Shown here: piece by piece, positions 31 to 7,474 of the stretch
Layout: every line of letters starts with the position of its first letter
Position numbering within the stretch: position 1 is the stretch's first letter
Source: Nitrospirae bacterium CG2_30_53_67
Lineage (GTDB): Bacteria > CG2-30-53-67
Assembly: GCA_001873285.1 (NCBI GenBank)
Contig: MNYV01000033.1
Location: forward strand, 1 to 10,899
Length of the DNA: 10,899 nt
Direction of reading: 5' to 3'
Program-made: the position numbers and the translations under genes
The notes under the pieces: model-generated
The model's input: only the letters and a program-made list of their open reading frames with translations
What the model was told of the DNA's origin: nothing
Database searches by the model: none

Positions 31-327
31 TCAGCCCTTCATCAGTCTTTTTCTTATCCAACTTGGGCTCCGACGGCAATCAAGAACAGCAAGGACCAGA
101 ATCACGTTATCAATGATCCGGTAATATACGGCAAATGGGAACCGCTTGGAAAGCAGGCGGTGGCATCCAAAGACCAGTTGGTGAATCCCTCCGAAGTATG
201 CTAAGGAGTCAATATCCGAATAAAGGGAATCGAGGAAATACGATCCGAGGCCGGGAGACTGCGACTCATAGAATCGATATCCCTCCTCGAGGTCCCTTTC
301 GGCTGGGCTAAGGATTCCTATCTTCAT
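31..327 (-). CDS. ParE/RelE-superfamily toxin of a type II toxin-antitoxin pair
   Basis: This 98-residue protein is a probable ParE/RelE-fold toxin. ParE members poison DNA gyrase and RelE members cut ribosome-bound mRNA; the sequence alone does not decide which applies. The N-terminal helix carries the usual pattern of charged residues (SPAERDLEEGYRFYES), followed by a GLGSYFLDSL helix. The C-terminal half has the family core HRLLSKRFPFAVYYRI, then VILVLAVLDCRRSP and a basic tail (RKRLMKG). The length matches typical ParE-like toxins, and the chain appears complete with no internal stop. Its ATG overlaps the stop of the upstream antitoxin gene by four bases (ATGA, 324-327), so the two are very probably translationally coupled. 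The family call is confident; the cellular target is not known. Confidence 0.88.
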   Translation of the reverse strand: MKIGILSPAERDLEEGYRFYESQSPGLGSYFLDSLYSDIDSLAYFGGIHQLVFGCHRLLSKRFPFAVYYRIIDNVILVLAVLDCRRSPSWIRKRLMKG

Positions 328-545
328 GAGATCTTTTTCTTAATTCTCTTCTTACTCTGTTCCCAATCCGAGGCAGTCACTTTACCAGCCGTGAAAGCCT
401 GTTCTCGGTCCTTAAGGATGGCTTCATGCCAAGCCGGGGATTTCATTTTCTTGTCATCTCGAGTTAGTTCCGACCAGAGCTTCTCCATCAAATCCAGCTT
501 CTGGGCAAGTGAAAGTTTGGAAATGGGCAAATCAATTCTTTTCAT
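324..545 (-). CDS. Antitoxin, addiction-module component (Unstab_antitox / TIGR02574-like)
   Basis: This 73-residue protein matches the small unstable antitoxins that accompany ParE/RelE toxins and neutralise them by direct binding. Visible family features are the N-terminal LSLAQKLDLMEKLWSEL amphipathic helix with its conserved Leu and Trp positions, the central SPAWHEAILKDREQAF segment, and a lysine-rich C terminus (QSKKRIKKKIS). The start is supported by a strong AAGGAG ribosome site six bases before the ATG. It is the first gene of a two-gene operon with the toxin and overlaps it by four bases. Antitoxins of this kind often repress their own promoter. I see no convincing long operator palindrome here, so autoregulation is inference. 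Confidence 0.87.
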   Translation of the reverse strand: MKRIDLPISKLSLAQKLDLMEKLWSELTRDDKKMKSPAWHEAILKDREQAFTAGKVTASDWEQSKKRIKKKIS

Positions 546-1354: not shown

Positions 1355-1530
1355 ACTTTCACCCCCTCCTCGCTGATGTTCTTCACGATCGGAGAAGACC
1401 GCAGAGGAGTGTTCTCAAGTTCGTATCGTGTAAAGATCAGGGGCGATATGTAGACAGAATGCGCAAAACCCACCTCCCACACGGCTTGGTGGATTTTATC
1501 CTCCAGGTTACGGTCGAGGGATTCCACTTC
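1351..1530 (-). pseudogene. MNT nucleotidyltransferase antitoxin, N-terminally truncated remnant
   Basis: The minus-strand frame ending with TGA at 1351-1353 gives 59 residues (EVESLDRNLEDKIHQAVWEV, then GFAHSVYISPLIFTRYELEN, then TPLRSSPIVKNISEEGVKV). These correspond to the C-terminal half of MNT-type nucleotidyltransferase domain proteins, the antitoxins of HEPN/MNT modules. The missing N-terminal half would carry the GSxxRG and DxDxD catalytic motifs. Upstream the frame is blocked by a TGA at 1531-1533 and the DNA there belongs to a PEP-CTERM protein gene. The next gene on the strand is the equally broken HEPN partner. No start codon with a ribosome site is visible, so this is a fossil of the antitoxin. 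Confidence 0.75.
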
Positions 1531-2056
1531 TCAGTTTTCGGAGCAGACCCAGTCCGATCAAACCGGAACAAAAGAGCAATATAGAGGCCGGTTCAGGGAC
1601 GAAGACTGAACTGTGGGGACTACCCGGCGAGGAGAGAATATCTATGGAACCACCGGCATTGCCCATGGGAACCATCTGCCAGGCCCCCCCGCCGCCGCTG
1701 CCTGGATAGTAGAGTCCGAAATCCCAGGATTGCACGATCGTTCCGGTGTTCCAGTCATACCAGGACTCCACGGCATCCAGATACAAGTCGGTCTTCGATC
1801 CGGCCCACCACTGCGTAGCAATGATATTCTGAATACCATAATCCCCTGTGGTAAACCATTGCGCCTCCAAACCCGTGTCGTCTTGCCAGTATGACCACCC
1901 GACAGGCAAATCCGCCGAGGCAAAGGGTTGATTGGACCACAGTGTAACCAGATTCGGTTTTTCATCGGTTACAAATGCCTGGCTCCAATCGGCCTCACCG
2001 GGAATGGTCCTCAACATGAAGATGCAGACCATGAATAGGAATAAGGTGTTTTTCAT
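1508..2056 (-). CDS. PEP-CTERM sorting domain protein, secreted
   Basis: This 182-residue protein is predicted to be exported and processed by an exosortase. An N-terminal signal peptide (about residues 1-22, hydrophobic LFLFMVCIFML then GEA) precedes a Trp/Tyr/Gly-rich body with no recognised enzyme fold. The C terminus has the diagnostic VPEPAS (153-158), a short hydrophobic helix, and a basic RKLR. The ATG at 2056 is chosen over a start 34 codons upstream because GGGAG lies just before it and the signal peptide begins there. The last six residues (SGIPRP) and the stop are read from DNA that, in another frame, is the MNT remnant. The native 3' end may therefore have been replaced. The gene stands alone; its exosortase must be elsewhere. 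Confidence 0.88.
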   Translation of the reverse strand: MKNTLFLFMVCIFMLRTIPGEADWSQAFVTDEKPNLVTLWSNQPFASADLPVGWSYWQDDTGLEAQWFTTGDYGIQNIIATQWWAGSKTDLYLDAVESWYDWNTGTIVQSWDFGLYYPGSGGGGAWQMVPMGNAGGSIDILSSPGSPHSSVFVPEPASILLFCSGLIGLGLLRKLRSGIPRP

Positions 2057-2167
2057 AAATGACTCCCGTGCTTTAAGGGATACCGGCCCTATCACGCTGT
2101 CTCGGCACGTCCCTTGAGTTTTTAAACCATTCAAAAACTTATTCAAAACCGCCAACATCTCTTATCC

Positions 2168-2554: not shown

Positions 2555-4429
2555 TCAATATGAGAAGCTGATCCGTACGTCATTGCCGTCCTCACGATTG
2601 ATCTGCCACAGCACCTTGGGCTGATAATCAAACAGTTTGGCCACAAACACATCCGGAACCCTTTCGATACGGATATTATAGATATTCACCCCTTCATTGT
2701 AGAGCTCTCGGCGGTCGGCAATTTCTTCCTCAAGTTCCGTTATTCTTGCCTGGATCTGTCCGAAGCTTTTGTCCGCCTTGAGTTCCGGGTACTTTTCCGA
2801 AACGGCAAAAAGGGACTTCAGGGCTTCGGTAATCATCCCGTCGGCCTTGCGTTTTTCTTCCATGGTGTTTGCATTGGACATCATGGCCCTGGCCCGGGTG
2901 ACTCTCTCCAGGGTGTCGGCCTCGTGTTTCATATACCGCTCGCAGACCGAAACCAGTTTAGGGAGTTCGTCGTGCCGCTGTTTCAGGAGCACATTGATAT
3001 TGCTCCAGGATTTGTCCACGTTGTTCCTGACAACAACCAGCCCGTTGTAAATAATTCGGTATTTCTTATAGGAGTAATAGACACAGTCGGTCTGGGAGTA
3101 TGGGGTTTTTAAAAAATATTTCTGTCTTGCCTTACCCTTGACTTCCACAAGCCCCATGGGCATGGACCGGATCTTGCTGGTCGGACAGTTCTCCAGGGCA
3201 CGCTTCCGTTTGATCATGATGAATGAATGTATAAAGCCGATCAGTCCTAAAAAGATGAGTCCTGCGGATAAAAAATGAAACTGCTTTACGGCATAGCACC
3301 AGGCTATGGAGCAAAAAAAACCAGCCGTGAGCGGATAGATAAGGACCGGAGGCCCCAGCCTCCGGACGTGCCTCCTGTATTGCCGCAGAAACAGCTTGAG
3401 GCCGCTCCCCCACGTCCTGATCTCCCCTGTCACCACCTCGATCGGGGATTCCGGAGGGGACGGTGGAATCCGTGAAGCTTTCCCCGATGGACCGGATGCG
3501 CGGCCAGGATCTTCCCAAGGGTCCTCTTTCACCTCCTGACGGCCCAAGAGAGGGCCGGTCAAAAGCAGTCCATCCAGTTCACCGAGGGCCTGGACCGGAG
3601 AGACCGGATCCCGGTCATGGACCGTACGGAACATATCCTGGGTATAGGCCAGATAGACGAAACGGGAATAGAGAGCGAACTCATTGAGAAGCCTCTCCGG
3701 AGAATCCGAATCCGGTGAATTCAGGAAAGGAAGCTCGCTCTCACCAAACCCCGCATCCATCACGGCCCTGACTGAAAATTTTCTGATCAGCTTGATCACC
3801 TCCGGGAAGTTTTGTGTGATGGATTTCAGGCTGCCTTCCCCGAGTGAATGAAAATTGAACCGTTGGCTGTCCAGCCGCAGAGGCGTATTGGATCCTGAGA
3901 TGTAGATATCCATGACCGGATGGTTCTGGAAAATAAACCTCAGCCGTCTGCTCAAAGGATATTCCACATCCTTTCCCACGACAAGCCTTGCGATCTGTTT
4001 TTTCTTGAGCTCTCCGGGTTTCATGGTCGTAAGAACAAGAATCGTTTCCTGAGTTCGGTCGAGCGAGGTTATTTCCCCTCCTCCCGGCGCCATAAAGCGC
4101 AATCTCTCCAGGCCTGCCTCAAGATCTGCTGCCCGGATGCTCCGTGCTCCCTTTTGAAGCTCCCTTTTGCTGATCACACAGCACGGGAAACCCTCGGCTT
4201 TTAAACTTCCCGATAAATGCTCAAGGATGTCCGCATCCTGTCCTGACAAAAGGACCTGGAGGGCCTCGCCCGTAAATTTTTGCCGTATGGTCGCTTTGTC
4301 CAGACCGGTAAGTTCTGAAAGGGGCGCAAGATAGGGATCGATCTTATGAGGATCCGTAGAAAAAGGGCGGATGACCAGGTAGTGGTGGGTGCTCTGCTCT
4401 ATGGACCTAACCGTCTCGGATGCACGCAT
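2555..4429 (-). CDS. Membrane protein with GIDE-like segment and C-terminal LemA domain
   Basis: This 624-residue protein has several parts. Residues 20-90 form a small compact unit (LTGLDKATIRQKFTG, LSGQDADILEHLSGSLKAEG) that may resemble an L7/L12- or ClpS-like module. Residues 100-270 are an uncharacterised region. A Pro/Gly-rich linker occupies 300-335, and two membrane helices lie near 360-380 and 386-406. Residues 411-458 (ENCPTSKIRSMPMGLVEVKG, TDCVYYSYKKY) resemble the start of GIDE/MULAN-like membrane domains. A helical LemA domain covers 463-605, with NNVDKSWSNINVLLKQRHDE and the family-typical YNEGVNIYNIRIERVPDVF. The function of LemA proteins is poorly defined. The ATG at 4429 is supported by AGGGG seven bases upstream. 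LemA proteins are usually about 190 residues, so this is an extended fusion. The LemA call is strong and the other domain calls weaker. Confidence 0.85.
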   Translation of the reverse strand: MRASETVRSIEQSTHHYLVIRPFSTDPHKIDPYLAPLSELTGLDKATIRQKFTGEALQVLLSGQDADILEHLSGSLKAEGFPCCVISKRELQKGARSIRAADLEAGLERLRFMAPGGGEITSLDRTQETILVLTTMKPGELKKKQIARLVVGKDVEYPLSRRLRFIFQNHPVMDIYISGSNTPLRLDSQRFNFHSLGEGSLKSITQNFPEVIKLIRKFSVRAVMDAGFGESELPFLNSPDSDSPERLLNEFALYSRFVYLAYTQDMFRTVHDRDPVSPVQALGELDGLLLTGPLLGRQEVKEDPWEDPGRASGPSGKASRIPPSPPESPIEVVTGEIRTWGSGLKLFLRQYRRHVRRLGPPVLIYPLTAGFFCSIAWCYAVKQFHFLSAGLIFLGLIGFIHSFIMIKRKRALENCPTSKIRSMPMGLVEVKGKARQKYFLKTPYSQTDCVYYSYKKYRIIYNGLVVVRNNVDKSWSNINVLLKQRHDELPKLVSVCERYMKHEADTLERVTRARAMMSNANTMEEKRKADGMITEALKSLFAVSEKYPELKADKSFGQIQARITELEEEIADRRELYNEGVNIYNIRIERVPDVFVAKLFDYQPKVLWQINREDGNDVRISFSY

Positions 4430-4720: not shown

Positions 4721-5449
4721 CTACTGATCGGATACGTCTCGATCCAGGGCTTCCTGAAAAGCCCGGTTTGCATCCTGGATATATCTCTCCCTGGGAAGGA
4801 GCACACGGCTGACGATATCGAGGGTTCCGGATGCCATCCTGCCGTCCCTGATCAGCTGGCGCCCTGCCTCTTTGGCCGCATCAAGGATGTCCTGCACCGG
4901 TTCGCCTATCTTCAGCATCACCCGAAACGCCTCGCCGTGCGGCCGGAGAAGCGCCCCTGCAAACTCAAGCCCTGCATTCCGGCAAAACGCCTTCATGTGG
5001 GCCAGCATGGGATCAAAATTGTCCTTTTCCCAGAGCCCGCAATTGGAGACGAGCGCCAGCTTGCCGGCCGTGTTTCCGTCCCTTCTCGGATGGCGGGAGT
5101 GATTGTCGCACAGCTCAAAATAAGGCTGTACCATCGGAAGCATCCGGTCCATCAGGTTCTTCACCGGTCCGGGAACACCGTCGCAATAGACGGGCACAGC
5201 AAACACCCAGATATCTGCGGCGCTCAGTTTGGGAAGGAGCATCGCCATATCATCCTCCTGGAGGCACTCCCCCGGCGTGCTGAACCAACAGTTAAACTCC
5301 GCGAGACAGGGGTTGATCTTCAGTTTCCGTGTATAGACCAGTTCAACCTTGGCGCCGGCCTCTTCCATGCCATCGAGGAATGGAACAAGGATGAGGGCGG
5401 TGTTTCCCACACCCATCTTCGGGCTGCCGTTGATTGCAATGACGTTCAT
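4721..5449 (-). CDS. Flavodoxin-family NAD(P)H-dependent FMN reductase-like protein
   Basis: This 242-residue cytoplasmic flavoprotein belongs to the NADPH-dependent FMN reductase / iron-sulfur flavoprotein group. It starts with a beta strand and the FMN phosphate loop INGSPKMGVGNTA (6-18). Further landmarks are the DDM (66-68), the FAVPVYCDGVPGPVKNLMDR segment (83-102) that borders the flavin, and the LVSNCGLWEKDNF strand-loop (133-145). Between residues 48 and 62 lie three Cys spaced C-x5-C-x7-C (PCLAEFNCWFSTPGEC). This differs from the compact CX2CX2C cluster motif of archaeal Isf proteins, so binding of an iron-sulfur cluster is doubtful. The physiological substrate is unknown. The start is supported by AGG seven bases upstream. 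The gene is monocistronic as far as can be seen. Confidence 0.83.
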   Translation of the reverse strand: MNVIAINGSPKMGVGNTALILVPFLDGMEEAGAKVELVYTRKLKINPCLAEFNCWFSTPGECLQEDDMAMLLPKLSAADIWVFAVPVYCDGVPGPVKNLMDRMLPMVQPYFELCDNHSRHPRRDGNTAGKLALVSNCGLWEKDNFDPMLAHMKAFCRNAGLEFAGALLRPHGEAFRVMLKIGEPVQDILDAAKEAGRQLIRDGRMASGTLDIVSRVLLPRERYIQDANRAFQEALDRDVSDQ

Positions 5450-5685
5450 AGCTGCCTGATCATTTCAGATGTTGGCCGGTTCGAGCACAGCCGGTCGGAA
5501 CGTTCCAATACCGGACATTCACGCGGGACATCGGCATTGCATAAGAGGATGCGTCTTCATACTCCATCTTAAAGGAACGGGCCGAACGGCTCCACCCTCT
5601 ATAGGAAAAATACCAACTAATTCATACCCTGTCAACTGCTTTGTAAAACTGCACAAAATCCCTTGGAATGCGGCATTAAATTGGT

Positions 5686-5697
5686 ATATGATCATAT
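5686..5697. promoter_or_regulatory. Perfect 12-base palindrome ATATGATCATAT upstream of the VKOR gene
   Basis: The palindrome is followed directly by an AT-rich run (TATATTTTAAAG) and lies 53 bases before the VKOR start, where a regulator site or -10 region could be. The stretch 5450-5749 between the divergent flavodoxin-family and VKOR genes otherwise holds no gene that I can support. A single short AT-rich palindrome can arise by chance. Confidence 0.3.
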
Positions 5698-5749
5698 TAT
5701 ATTTTAAAGCCCTCAATTGCGGCTAAAAACCCGCTGATGGTTATCTCAT

Positions 5750-6667
5750 ATGAATAAGATCATGTATCGTACGGCCCTGACCGCCAGTCTGATGATAGGC
5801 GCTCAAGTGATGATGATTCTGCTGAGGGGAGAATCCGCCTGCCTGAACCAGGGTTGCAAGGTGGTTGAAGGCCTGATGACCCTTTCCCCCCTTCTGTTCA
5901 ACCTGGCGGGGCTGGTTTACTTTCAGCTTCTATTCTGGATCTTGTTCCGGACGAGGTTCAGGCCTCAGGCCGCCATGGAATGGATTTCGATCCTGCTTCT
6001 TGCCGGTCTTTCGGTGGAAGGGGTGCTCCTCTCTTATCAGATCTTTGTGGCCCGGGCCTTCTGCTCCTACTGTATCCTGCTTTTTCTGATGGTCCTGCTG
6101 ATGAACGCCTTGGCCGGACGGCAGCAGCTCTTCAAGGGAGCGGCGGTTGTCGTTGCCGTCATCTCGATATTCTCCCTGCTCAGCTTCGGCCCCTCGATGG
6201 TTTTGTCCCGGTATCAATCCCTGGATTCAGGGACATTTGCCGTAAAGACCTGTTCCTCGCCGGTCAAGAAACTCTATCTGATCTTCTCTTCAGAGTGCCC
6301 CCATTGCCGGAACGTGATCAAGGCGCTGGAGAACTGCAACAGCTGCGATTTTCATTTTAATCCGGTTGACCGGATAAAAACTCTGGATCTTCCTGACCTG
6401 GAACGCAGGGCATCCTATTCCGCAGAGTTCAACCGTCTCGTCCTTTCACTCATGGGCATCAAGGAGGTGCCTGTGGTGATTGCAAAAAATCCGGACGGCT
6501 TTTCCATTATCAAAGGGGAGACGAACATTATCCAATATATCGAGGAAGCCTGTTTTCAAAAGGCCCCGCTTTCGTATATAAACCCGTCATGGTCCCCTGG
6601 TCAGGAAGAGATGAAATCGTCCGAAGATGAGAATGGTCTCTGCGGTGAGGGCTCGGAATGTCATTGA
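5750..6667 (+). CDS. Vitamin K epoxide reductase family protein fused to a thioredoxin-like domain
   Basis: This 305-residue inner-membrane protein is predicted to make or relay disulfide bonds, doing the job of DsbB with a tethered DsbA-like partner and passing electrons to quinone. The N-terminal half is a VKOR four-helix bundle: the loop Cys pair C31/C36 (ACLNQGCKVVEG), membrane helices near 8-25, 45-66, 79-99 and 104-122, and the quinone-side CxxC at 105-108 (CSYC). A fifth helix lies at about 129-148. The thioredoxin-like domain follows, with FSSECPHC (CPHC 183-186) and the cis-proline loop EVPVV (P241). Extra Cys occur at 196, 199 and 268 and in a hydrophilic tail (C298, C304). The ATG at 5750 has only a weak ribosome site. 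The family call is strong; the disulfide-forming direction is inferred. Confidence 0.9.
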   Translation: MNKIMYRTALTASLMIGAQVMMILLRGESACLNQGCKVVEGLMTLSPLLFNLAGLVYFQLLFWILFRTRFRPQAAMEWISILLLAGLSVEGVLLSYQIFVARAFCSYCILLFLMVLLMNALAGRQQLFKGAAVVVAVISIFSLLSFGPSMVLSRYQSLDSGTFAVKTCSSPVKKLYLIFSSECPHCRNVIKALENCNSCDFHFNPVDRIKTLDLPDLERRASYSAEFNRLVLSLMGIKEVPVVIAKNPDGFSIIKGETNIIQYIEEACFQKAPLSYINPSWSPGQEEMKSSEDENGLCGEGSECH

Positions 6668-6759
6668 ATAGCGGGAAGTTTTTAGAAAGTTAAACCCATG
6701 GCCGCCGTGCCGGGAAACATTCTCTATATGCTATACCATGATAGGGTGCAGCTTTAAAT

Positions 6760-6776
6760 CCCTTGATTTTCAAGGG
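6760..6776. repeat. Short hairpin CCCTTGA-TTT-TCAAGGG between the VKOR and PHP genes
   Basis: A perfect 7-base stem with a 3-base loop sits in the 159-base gap after the VKOR stop. The sequence that follows is GGGAATTTGTT rather than an uninterrupted T-run, so it is at best a weak terminator for the VKOR gene. It could equally be a leader element for the PHP operon. Confidence 0.35.
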
Positions 6777-6826
6777 GGAATTTGTTAGTTTGTCTCATAA
6801 TTTAAACCAAAGGGGATGCACGATCT

Positions 6827-7474
6827 ATGATTGACCTTCATACCCATACGCTTCTGAGTGACGGCGCGCTCCTCCCTTCTGAGCTGGCCCGCCGGGCCGA
6901 GGTGATCGGTTACAAGGTCATGGCCTTCACCGACCATGTGGATCATTCGAACCTGGACTATGTCGTTACGAGCATCCTCATGGTCTGTAAGGTGATCAAC
7001 GCCAGGGGCGGGCTTCGTGTCATCCCGGGCGTGGAGATCACCCACGTCTCTCCGGCTCAGTTCGGGGACCTGGCGGCGAGGGCCAGGGCGCTGGGCGCTA
7101 AAATCGTGGTGGCCCACGGGGAGACCCTGGTGGAGCCGGTGGCCCCCGGGACCAACCGTGCGGCCATAGAGGCCGGGGTGGATATCCTGGCGCATCCGGG
7201 CCTGATCTCCGAGGAAGAGGTGGAACTGGCCATGGAACGGAGGGTTCTCCTCGAGATCACCACGAGAAAGGGACACTCGCTTTCCAACGGCCACGTGGCC
7301 AGGCTGGCTATGAAGCTGAAGGCCGGGCTTGTCATCAATACGGATACGCATGATCCCCAGGATTTGGTGGAAAGATCCATGGCCGAGAGGATATTGATGG
7401 GGGCCGGCCTCACCCCGGATACGGTGCATGCCGTTTTTAAAAATTCCGAGGCGCTGGTCCAAAGACTGAAATAA
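6827..7474 (+). CDS. PHP-domain metal-dependent phosphoesterase (histidinol-phosphatase-like)
   Basis: This 215-residue cytoplasmic protein is a complete single PHP domain, a barrel that hydrolyses phosphoesters with two or three bound metals. The ligand set is intact: HTH at 5-7 with D12, TDHVDH (H37, H40), GVEITH (E70), AHGE (H97), AHPG (H123), and the closing NTDTHD (D173, H175). The length matches stand-alone PHP proteins, which are often annotated as histidinol phosphatase-like. Substrate specificity cannot be read from sequence, and no other histidine-biosynthesis gene is nearby. AAGGGG lies about 11 bases before the ATG. It is the first gene of a probable three-gene operon, with 21 bases to the TPR gene. 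Confidence 0.88.
   Translation: MIDLHTHTLLSDGALLPSELARRAEVIGYKVMAFTDHVDHSNLDYVVTSILMVCKVINARGGLRVIPGVEITHVSPAQFGDLAARARALGAKIVVAHGETLVEPVAPGTNRAAIEAGVDILAHPGLISEEEVELAMERRVLLEITTRKGHSLSNGHVARLAMKLKAGLVINTDTHDPQDLVERSMAERILMGAGLTPDTVHAVFKNSEALVQRLK

Follow-up and report, generated by a model that had tools for sequence, protein, structure and literature searches.

The only member of the LemA family that has been tied to a process is MamQ, which is needed for normal magnetosome membranes (PMC4902198). The BAM/GIDE domain connects bacteria to a mitochondrial ligase; in human MAPL it sits in the intermembrane space, and its ancestral role has been called open (PMC4457424). In a literature search that included links via MAPL, PspA and TPM, no papers were found that join the LemA and GIDE families. 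In the DNA analysed here, parts of both occur within one open reading frame (ORF).

The fused reading frame and its parts

The stretch that was analysed (the window) covers bases 1-10899 of contig 33 in the source genome, a MAG of 2.36 Mb in 183 contigs that is 95% complete. The chain of 624 residues that the preliminary description had reported at 2555-4429 is indeed encoded by an uninterrupted ORF, which starts with ATG and runs on the minus strand from 4429 to 2555, the plus strand of the interval being full of stops. A possible purine-rich stretch (AGGGG) is located just 5' of its start. The frame can be divided as follows:

2555..4429, minus strand: fused ORF of 624 aa, with head, second domain, transmembrane (TM) hairpin, GIDE stub and LemA
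4163..4396, minus strand: head module, residues 12-89, predicted ClpS/ribosomal L7-L12 C-terminal fold (AF2 and VIA)
3641..4153, minus strand: second domain, residues 93-263, possibly PH-like (weak; AF2 and structure comparison)
3410..3640, minus strand: proline-rich low-complexity linker, residues 264-340 (low pLDDT at the modelled end; length varies among relatives)
3218..3346, minus strand: TM hairpin, residues 362-380 and 386-404 (hydropathy and K/R flank counts)
3059..3211, minus strand: GIDE-protein remnant, residues 407-457, the region preceding the Pfam GIDE core (segment profile, 2e-35)
3056..3058, minus strand: fusion junction, residue 458 (Arg); around 710 bp of the two-gene relatives is absent here
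2558..3055, minus strand: LemA part, residues 459-624, lacking its own N-terminal TM helix (PF04011 match)

Elsewhere in the window, a likely toxin-antitoxin pair is present at 31-545 (minus strand), in which a ParE-like toxin of 98 aa, just below the cut-off, lies downstream of an Unstab_antitox (PF09720) antitoxin. The gene at 1508-2158 (minus strand), which adjoins the fused gene, encodes a protein that ends in a PEP-CTERM sorting signal. At 5750-6667 (plus strand) lies the gene for a membrane protein of 305 aa, part of which weakly resembles VKOR and whose C-terminus carries a thioredoxin-like CPHC motif; it may be a disulfide-forming fusion.

The sole Pfam match in the fused protein is that to LemA (PF04011, residues 474-622, E 4.1e-45, covering profile positions 1-149 of 149), in agreement with the LemA domain that had been proposed for the end of the chain. 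The closest solved structure is that of Thermotoga maritima LemA (PDB 2etd, 3e-26), and the LemA part is 77-78% identical to the stand-alone LemA genes found in the same family. The layout of a small single-TM LemA is absent, as the protein measures 624 aa and is anchored by the TM hairpin of its partner. The two membrane helices of this hairpin had been recognized correctly (around residues 362-380 and 386-404), and each of its outer flanks carries 5 K/R. Outside the window, the LemA domain also matched a ciliate-type mitoribosomal 'S18' chain of 549 aa (PDB 6z1p_Br, E 0.003 over 138 residues), which may point to a LemA-like extension in that chain.

The GIDE-like segment that was proposed to precede LemA stands only in part. 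The Pfam GIDE model (PF12483) matched neither the fused protein nor anything else in its genome, whereas residues 387-464 match the profile of the pre-GIDE region of the two-gene relatives at 9.6e-40 (2e-35 for residues 407-457 alone), a segment profile that also matches other GIDE proteins. The similarity to a GIDE profile at 411-458, which had been put forward as a test, is therefore split: negative for the Pfam domain and positive for the region before it. The Pfam model misses the fused protein because in the relatives it begins downstream of the retained part. Given the strong pre-GIDE match, the segment is best read as what remains of a GIDE domain that was deleted, and not as a short GIDE domain. 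The usual placement of GIDE between two TM regions is not found either, as the C-terminal TM that is present in the relatives is absent from the fused ORF.

The N-terminal half gave nothing significant in sequence searches against Pfam, NCBIfam and the PDB, in line with its earlier description as unassigned; matches to designed proteins were judged compositional. An AF2 model of residues 9-282, built with eight sequences, reached a pLDDT of 84 and a pTM of 0.85. Within it, the compact module that had been suspected at 20-90 is recovered as a head of around residues 12-89, with a pLDDT of around 90. In a comparison with VIA, the head aligned with ClpS (9ayn) at Z 9.2 (76 aligned residues, 2.9 A) and with L7/L12 (1ctf) at Z 6.5. 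Foldseek returned no match to the head with an E below 0.07, so that the ClpS/L12 assignment rests on VIA-align, and neither the Pfam ClpS nor the L7/L12 family matched. The head motif (TGL.....) is nearer to that of L7/L12, as judged against approximate control sequences, and the residues with which ClpS binds N-degrons (Asp-Asp, His) were not seen in a MAFFT alignment against an approximate ClpS sequence. Judged from the model, the head has the fold that ClpS and L7/L12 share, although the fold alone does not show function. The second domain, modelled separately (residues 93-282, pLDDT 80, pTM 0.81), found its best structural matches at Z 4.7 or less, including several PH-like ones at Z 3.3-4.3 (3hsa at Z 4.3), which are too weak to name it. 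In four genomes (G003, G047, G379 and G079) the head and second domain also make up separate proteins of about 256-368 aa, to which no Pfam domain could be assigned; the two domains are thus a mobile module that is independent of LemA. Stand-alone copies were located at L053 2806-3576 (minus strand), L055 2911-4017, L056 285-1058 and L058 3050-3847, one of them with a zinc ribbon.

Two-gene relatives and the origin of the fusion

In a protein search that covered 60 relatives and GTDB contigs, the full sequence was found to be split into two genes in all nine other genomes or contigs that carry it (L004, which is the same as L034; L033; and L035-L041), and the two-gene order was found again in genome G321. 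In the nine, an ORF of 645-703 aa (partial in L036) is followed on the same strand by a LemA of 184-189 aa, at a distance of -4 to about +230 nt. The long partner consists of the ClpS/L7-L12-fold head, the second domain, the TM hairpin, a GIDE domain with an EF-hand loop and a last TM, and the separate LemA carries an N-terminal TM of its own. PF12483 scored above the cut-off in six of the eight long partners scanned; the EF-hand-like loop was recognized in all eight, each time below the Pfam cut-off. In L041 (genome G002, 4920-6946) the long GIDE-type gene consists of two overlapping ORFs, with a frame change in the linker region.

The relation between the two arrangements is clear from genome G004, where the match to residues 11-458 stops at 22424 and the match to residues 457-624 resumes at 23137, within another ORF. 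In the window, the retained GIDE-side sequence stops at residue 457 and LemA restarts at residue 459; between them the Pfam GIDE core, EF-hand and last TM of the long partner and the TM of LemA are missing, and what had been called a GIDE-like segment is the leftover stub of 50 residues. The fused ORF was thus very probably created by an in-frame deletion of around 710 bp, which joined an adjacent, co-oriented GIDE-type gene and its partner LemA and is real in some cell of the population. The fused form was found in no other genome searched. The locus is missing entirely from G001, a genome of the same genus, no such gene pair is present in G001, G003 and G005 of the same family, and the gene neighbours beyond the pair differ between the genomes of the relatives. 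On these sequence comparisons, the fused ORF is a lineage-specific secondary fusion and not the original architecture. The large fusion of the preliminary description therefore holds as a single ORF, but only for this one lineage.

Considering that the source is a MAG in 183 contigs, that the fusion was unseen in every other genome searched and that a random deletion has a one-in-three chance of keeping the frame, the organism might possess the normal two genes, the contig being a chimera or carrying the deletion of a minor strain. Comparison of the junction DNA with the two breakpoints of the relatives revealed no more than a few bases of homology, not enough for an assembler to have made the join. 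Moreover, the sequences to either side of the junction have the same GC3 (0.65), trees of each half place the window sequence beside L004, and neither a second intact copy, the missing fragment nor a GIDE core was found elsewhere in the 95%-complete genome. An artefact of assembly or strain mixture is unlikely, although it deserves to be taken seriously. The deletion could also be a recent loss of function that destroyed the GIDE domain and left the fused ORF as a remnant without a role of its own, en route to loss. The conserved GIDE core, EF-hand, last TM and LemA TM are all missing, and the absence of the pair from the three genomes of the same family indicates that the system can be lost. 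Nevertheless, the ORF is in frame without other lesions across 624 codons, and its head and LemA part are constrained: compared with L004, identity of the LemA part at codon positions 1/2/3 is 81/92/41% (91.5% at the second and 40.9% at the third), and in a relative-rate test 17 v 10 changes (p 0.25) gave no indication of decay. In addition, membrane sidedness is preserved (see below) and GIDE and LemA are stably fused in another family too, which makes such a decaying remnant improbable. Faster evolution of LemA after the fusion was hinted at by branch lengths and was not significant (p 0.25).

A single open chain with a folded head, TMs and LemA might in principle have evolved as one design, in which the short GIDE-like module, the head and LemA formed an original multidomain platform. 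This is hardly credible, as all relatives show two genes and a full GIDE domain and the end of the GIDE-like segment coincides exactly with the deletion junction. The membrane platform with a partner-binding head that was suggested earlier does fit the layout of the protein, with its TM hairpin and with a folded head and a LemA bundle both on the cytosolic side; what the two-gene relatives contradict is a designed multidomain architecture. Together, the data argue for a deletion fusion that is a genuine, still-constrained gene, known from one assembly.

GIDE and LemA across genomes

The two families were surveyed in 372 genomes, of which 23 encode GIDE and 230 (~60%) LemA. In 12 of the 23 GIDE genomes the gene immediately downstream of GIDE, on the same strand, is a LemA gene (G002, G004, G015, G321, G201, G273, G093, G349, G079, G332, G244 and G131) and in G167 the two constitute one ORF; at the remaining GIDE loci examined LemA was absent nearby. 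Given one to four LemA genes per genome, such adjacency would be rare by chance. The family of G167 (f14), an unrelated bacterial family, contributes five proteins of 442-490 aa from three genomes (L091 and L093-L096) with the order GIDE-TM-TM-LemA in one chain, four of which have Pfam matches to both domains. A complete example is found at L091 3013-4401, and three copies occur in one genome (G387). No description of such fusions was found in the literature search. Among the best ~160 LemA matches listed, no open frame exceeds 458 codons, apart from that of the window, which stands alone with 625.

It is possible, if somewhat short of probable, that GIDE/BAM proteins and LemA belong to a single bacterial inner-membrane system that is widespread and has gone undescribed, and that the fusions, which have arisen at least twice, reveal a direct interaction on the same side of the membrane. 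The fusion is most useful as a Rosetta-stone pointer to such a GIDE-LemA membrane system, of which the literature search yielded no description.

Topology, a possible mechanism and comparison with known systems

From K/R counts we infer that the head, the GIDE lead-in and the LemA bundle are on the cytosolic side. Between GIDE and LemA there are two membrane crossings in the intact partners, two in the f14 fusions and none in the window ORF, so the GIDE side and the LemA side agree in each case. As the deletion takes out two crossings (the last TM and the LemA TM), LemA would keep its original side of the membrane. Against this topology, the C-terminal domain of LemA has been predicted to lie outside the cytosol (PMC3905215).

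With this orientation, we infer that the fused protein would act as a scaffold at the cytosolic face of the inner membrane, with the head now carried on LemA within a single chain. In the two-gene ancestor, the head with its ClpS/L12 fold would be cytosolic and bind a partner, and the GIDE domain, with an EF-hand loop that may respond to Ca2+, would regulate beside the membrane. LemA, as a helical bundle on the same face, would be a scaffold for the assembly of further membrane proteins, as its relative MamQ is early in the formation of the magnetosome membrane. The fusion would tie head and LemA permanently in a 1:1 ratio, making their coupling constitutive, and the loss of the GIDE/EF-hand step would leave the same membrane scaffold unregulated. 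This specific division of roles (LemA as scaffold, head as binder of a cytosolic partner, GIDE/EF-hand as regulator) is drawn by analogy and rather doubtful; the analogy to MamQ is distant, the fused protein scoring 68 bits against the MamQ equivalog of NCBIfam, short of the cut-off of 250. Taken as one statement, a deletion fusion of GIDE and LemA genes with a membrane-scaffold mechanism is considered reasonably probable.

If true, a GIDE-LemA system would provide a prokaryotic context for the BAM domain of MAPL/MUL1 and likewise for LemA, whose known process is limited to magnetosome formation. Both the repeated pairing of the genes and the existence of two types of fusion lead to a simple, testable claim, namely that LemA and GIDE proteins cooperate on the same membrane face. 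If the fusion is functional, the GIDE core, the EF-hand and two TMs may be dispensable.

Compared with the LemA family (PF04011; 2etd, MamQ), the C-terminal 166 residues of the fused protein constitute a full-length LemA domain, but this domain is preceded by an alien part of 458 residues and lacks the usual N-terminal TM helix. With the GIDE/BAM proteins (PF12483; human MAPL/MUL1 and prokaryotic BAM without RING, the latter domain being absent from every prokaryotic relative seen) it shares the TM hairpin, the basic patch and the lead-in PTSKIRSMPMG.VEVKG...CVYYSY; it differs from them by the deleted GIDE core, EF-hand insert and C-terminal TM. The head has its predicted fold in common with ClpS and the C-terminal domain of ribosomal L7/L12, though it lacks a Pfam match to either. 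Finally, the f14 fusions resemble the window ORF in that a GIDE protein and LemA are joined in one chain and in the same order, whereas they possess a complete GIDE core, have kept both TMs, lack the head domain and are of independent origin.
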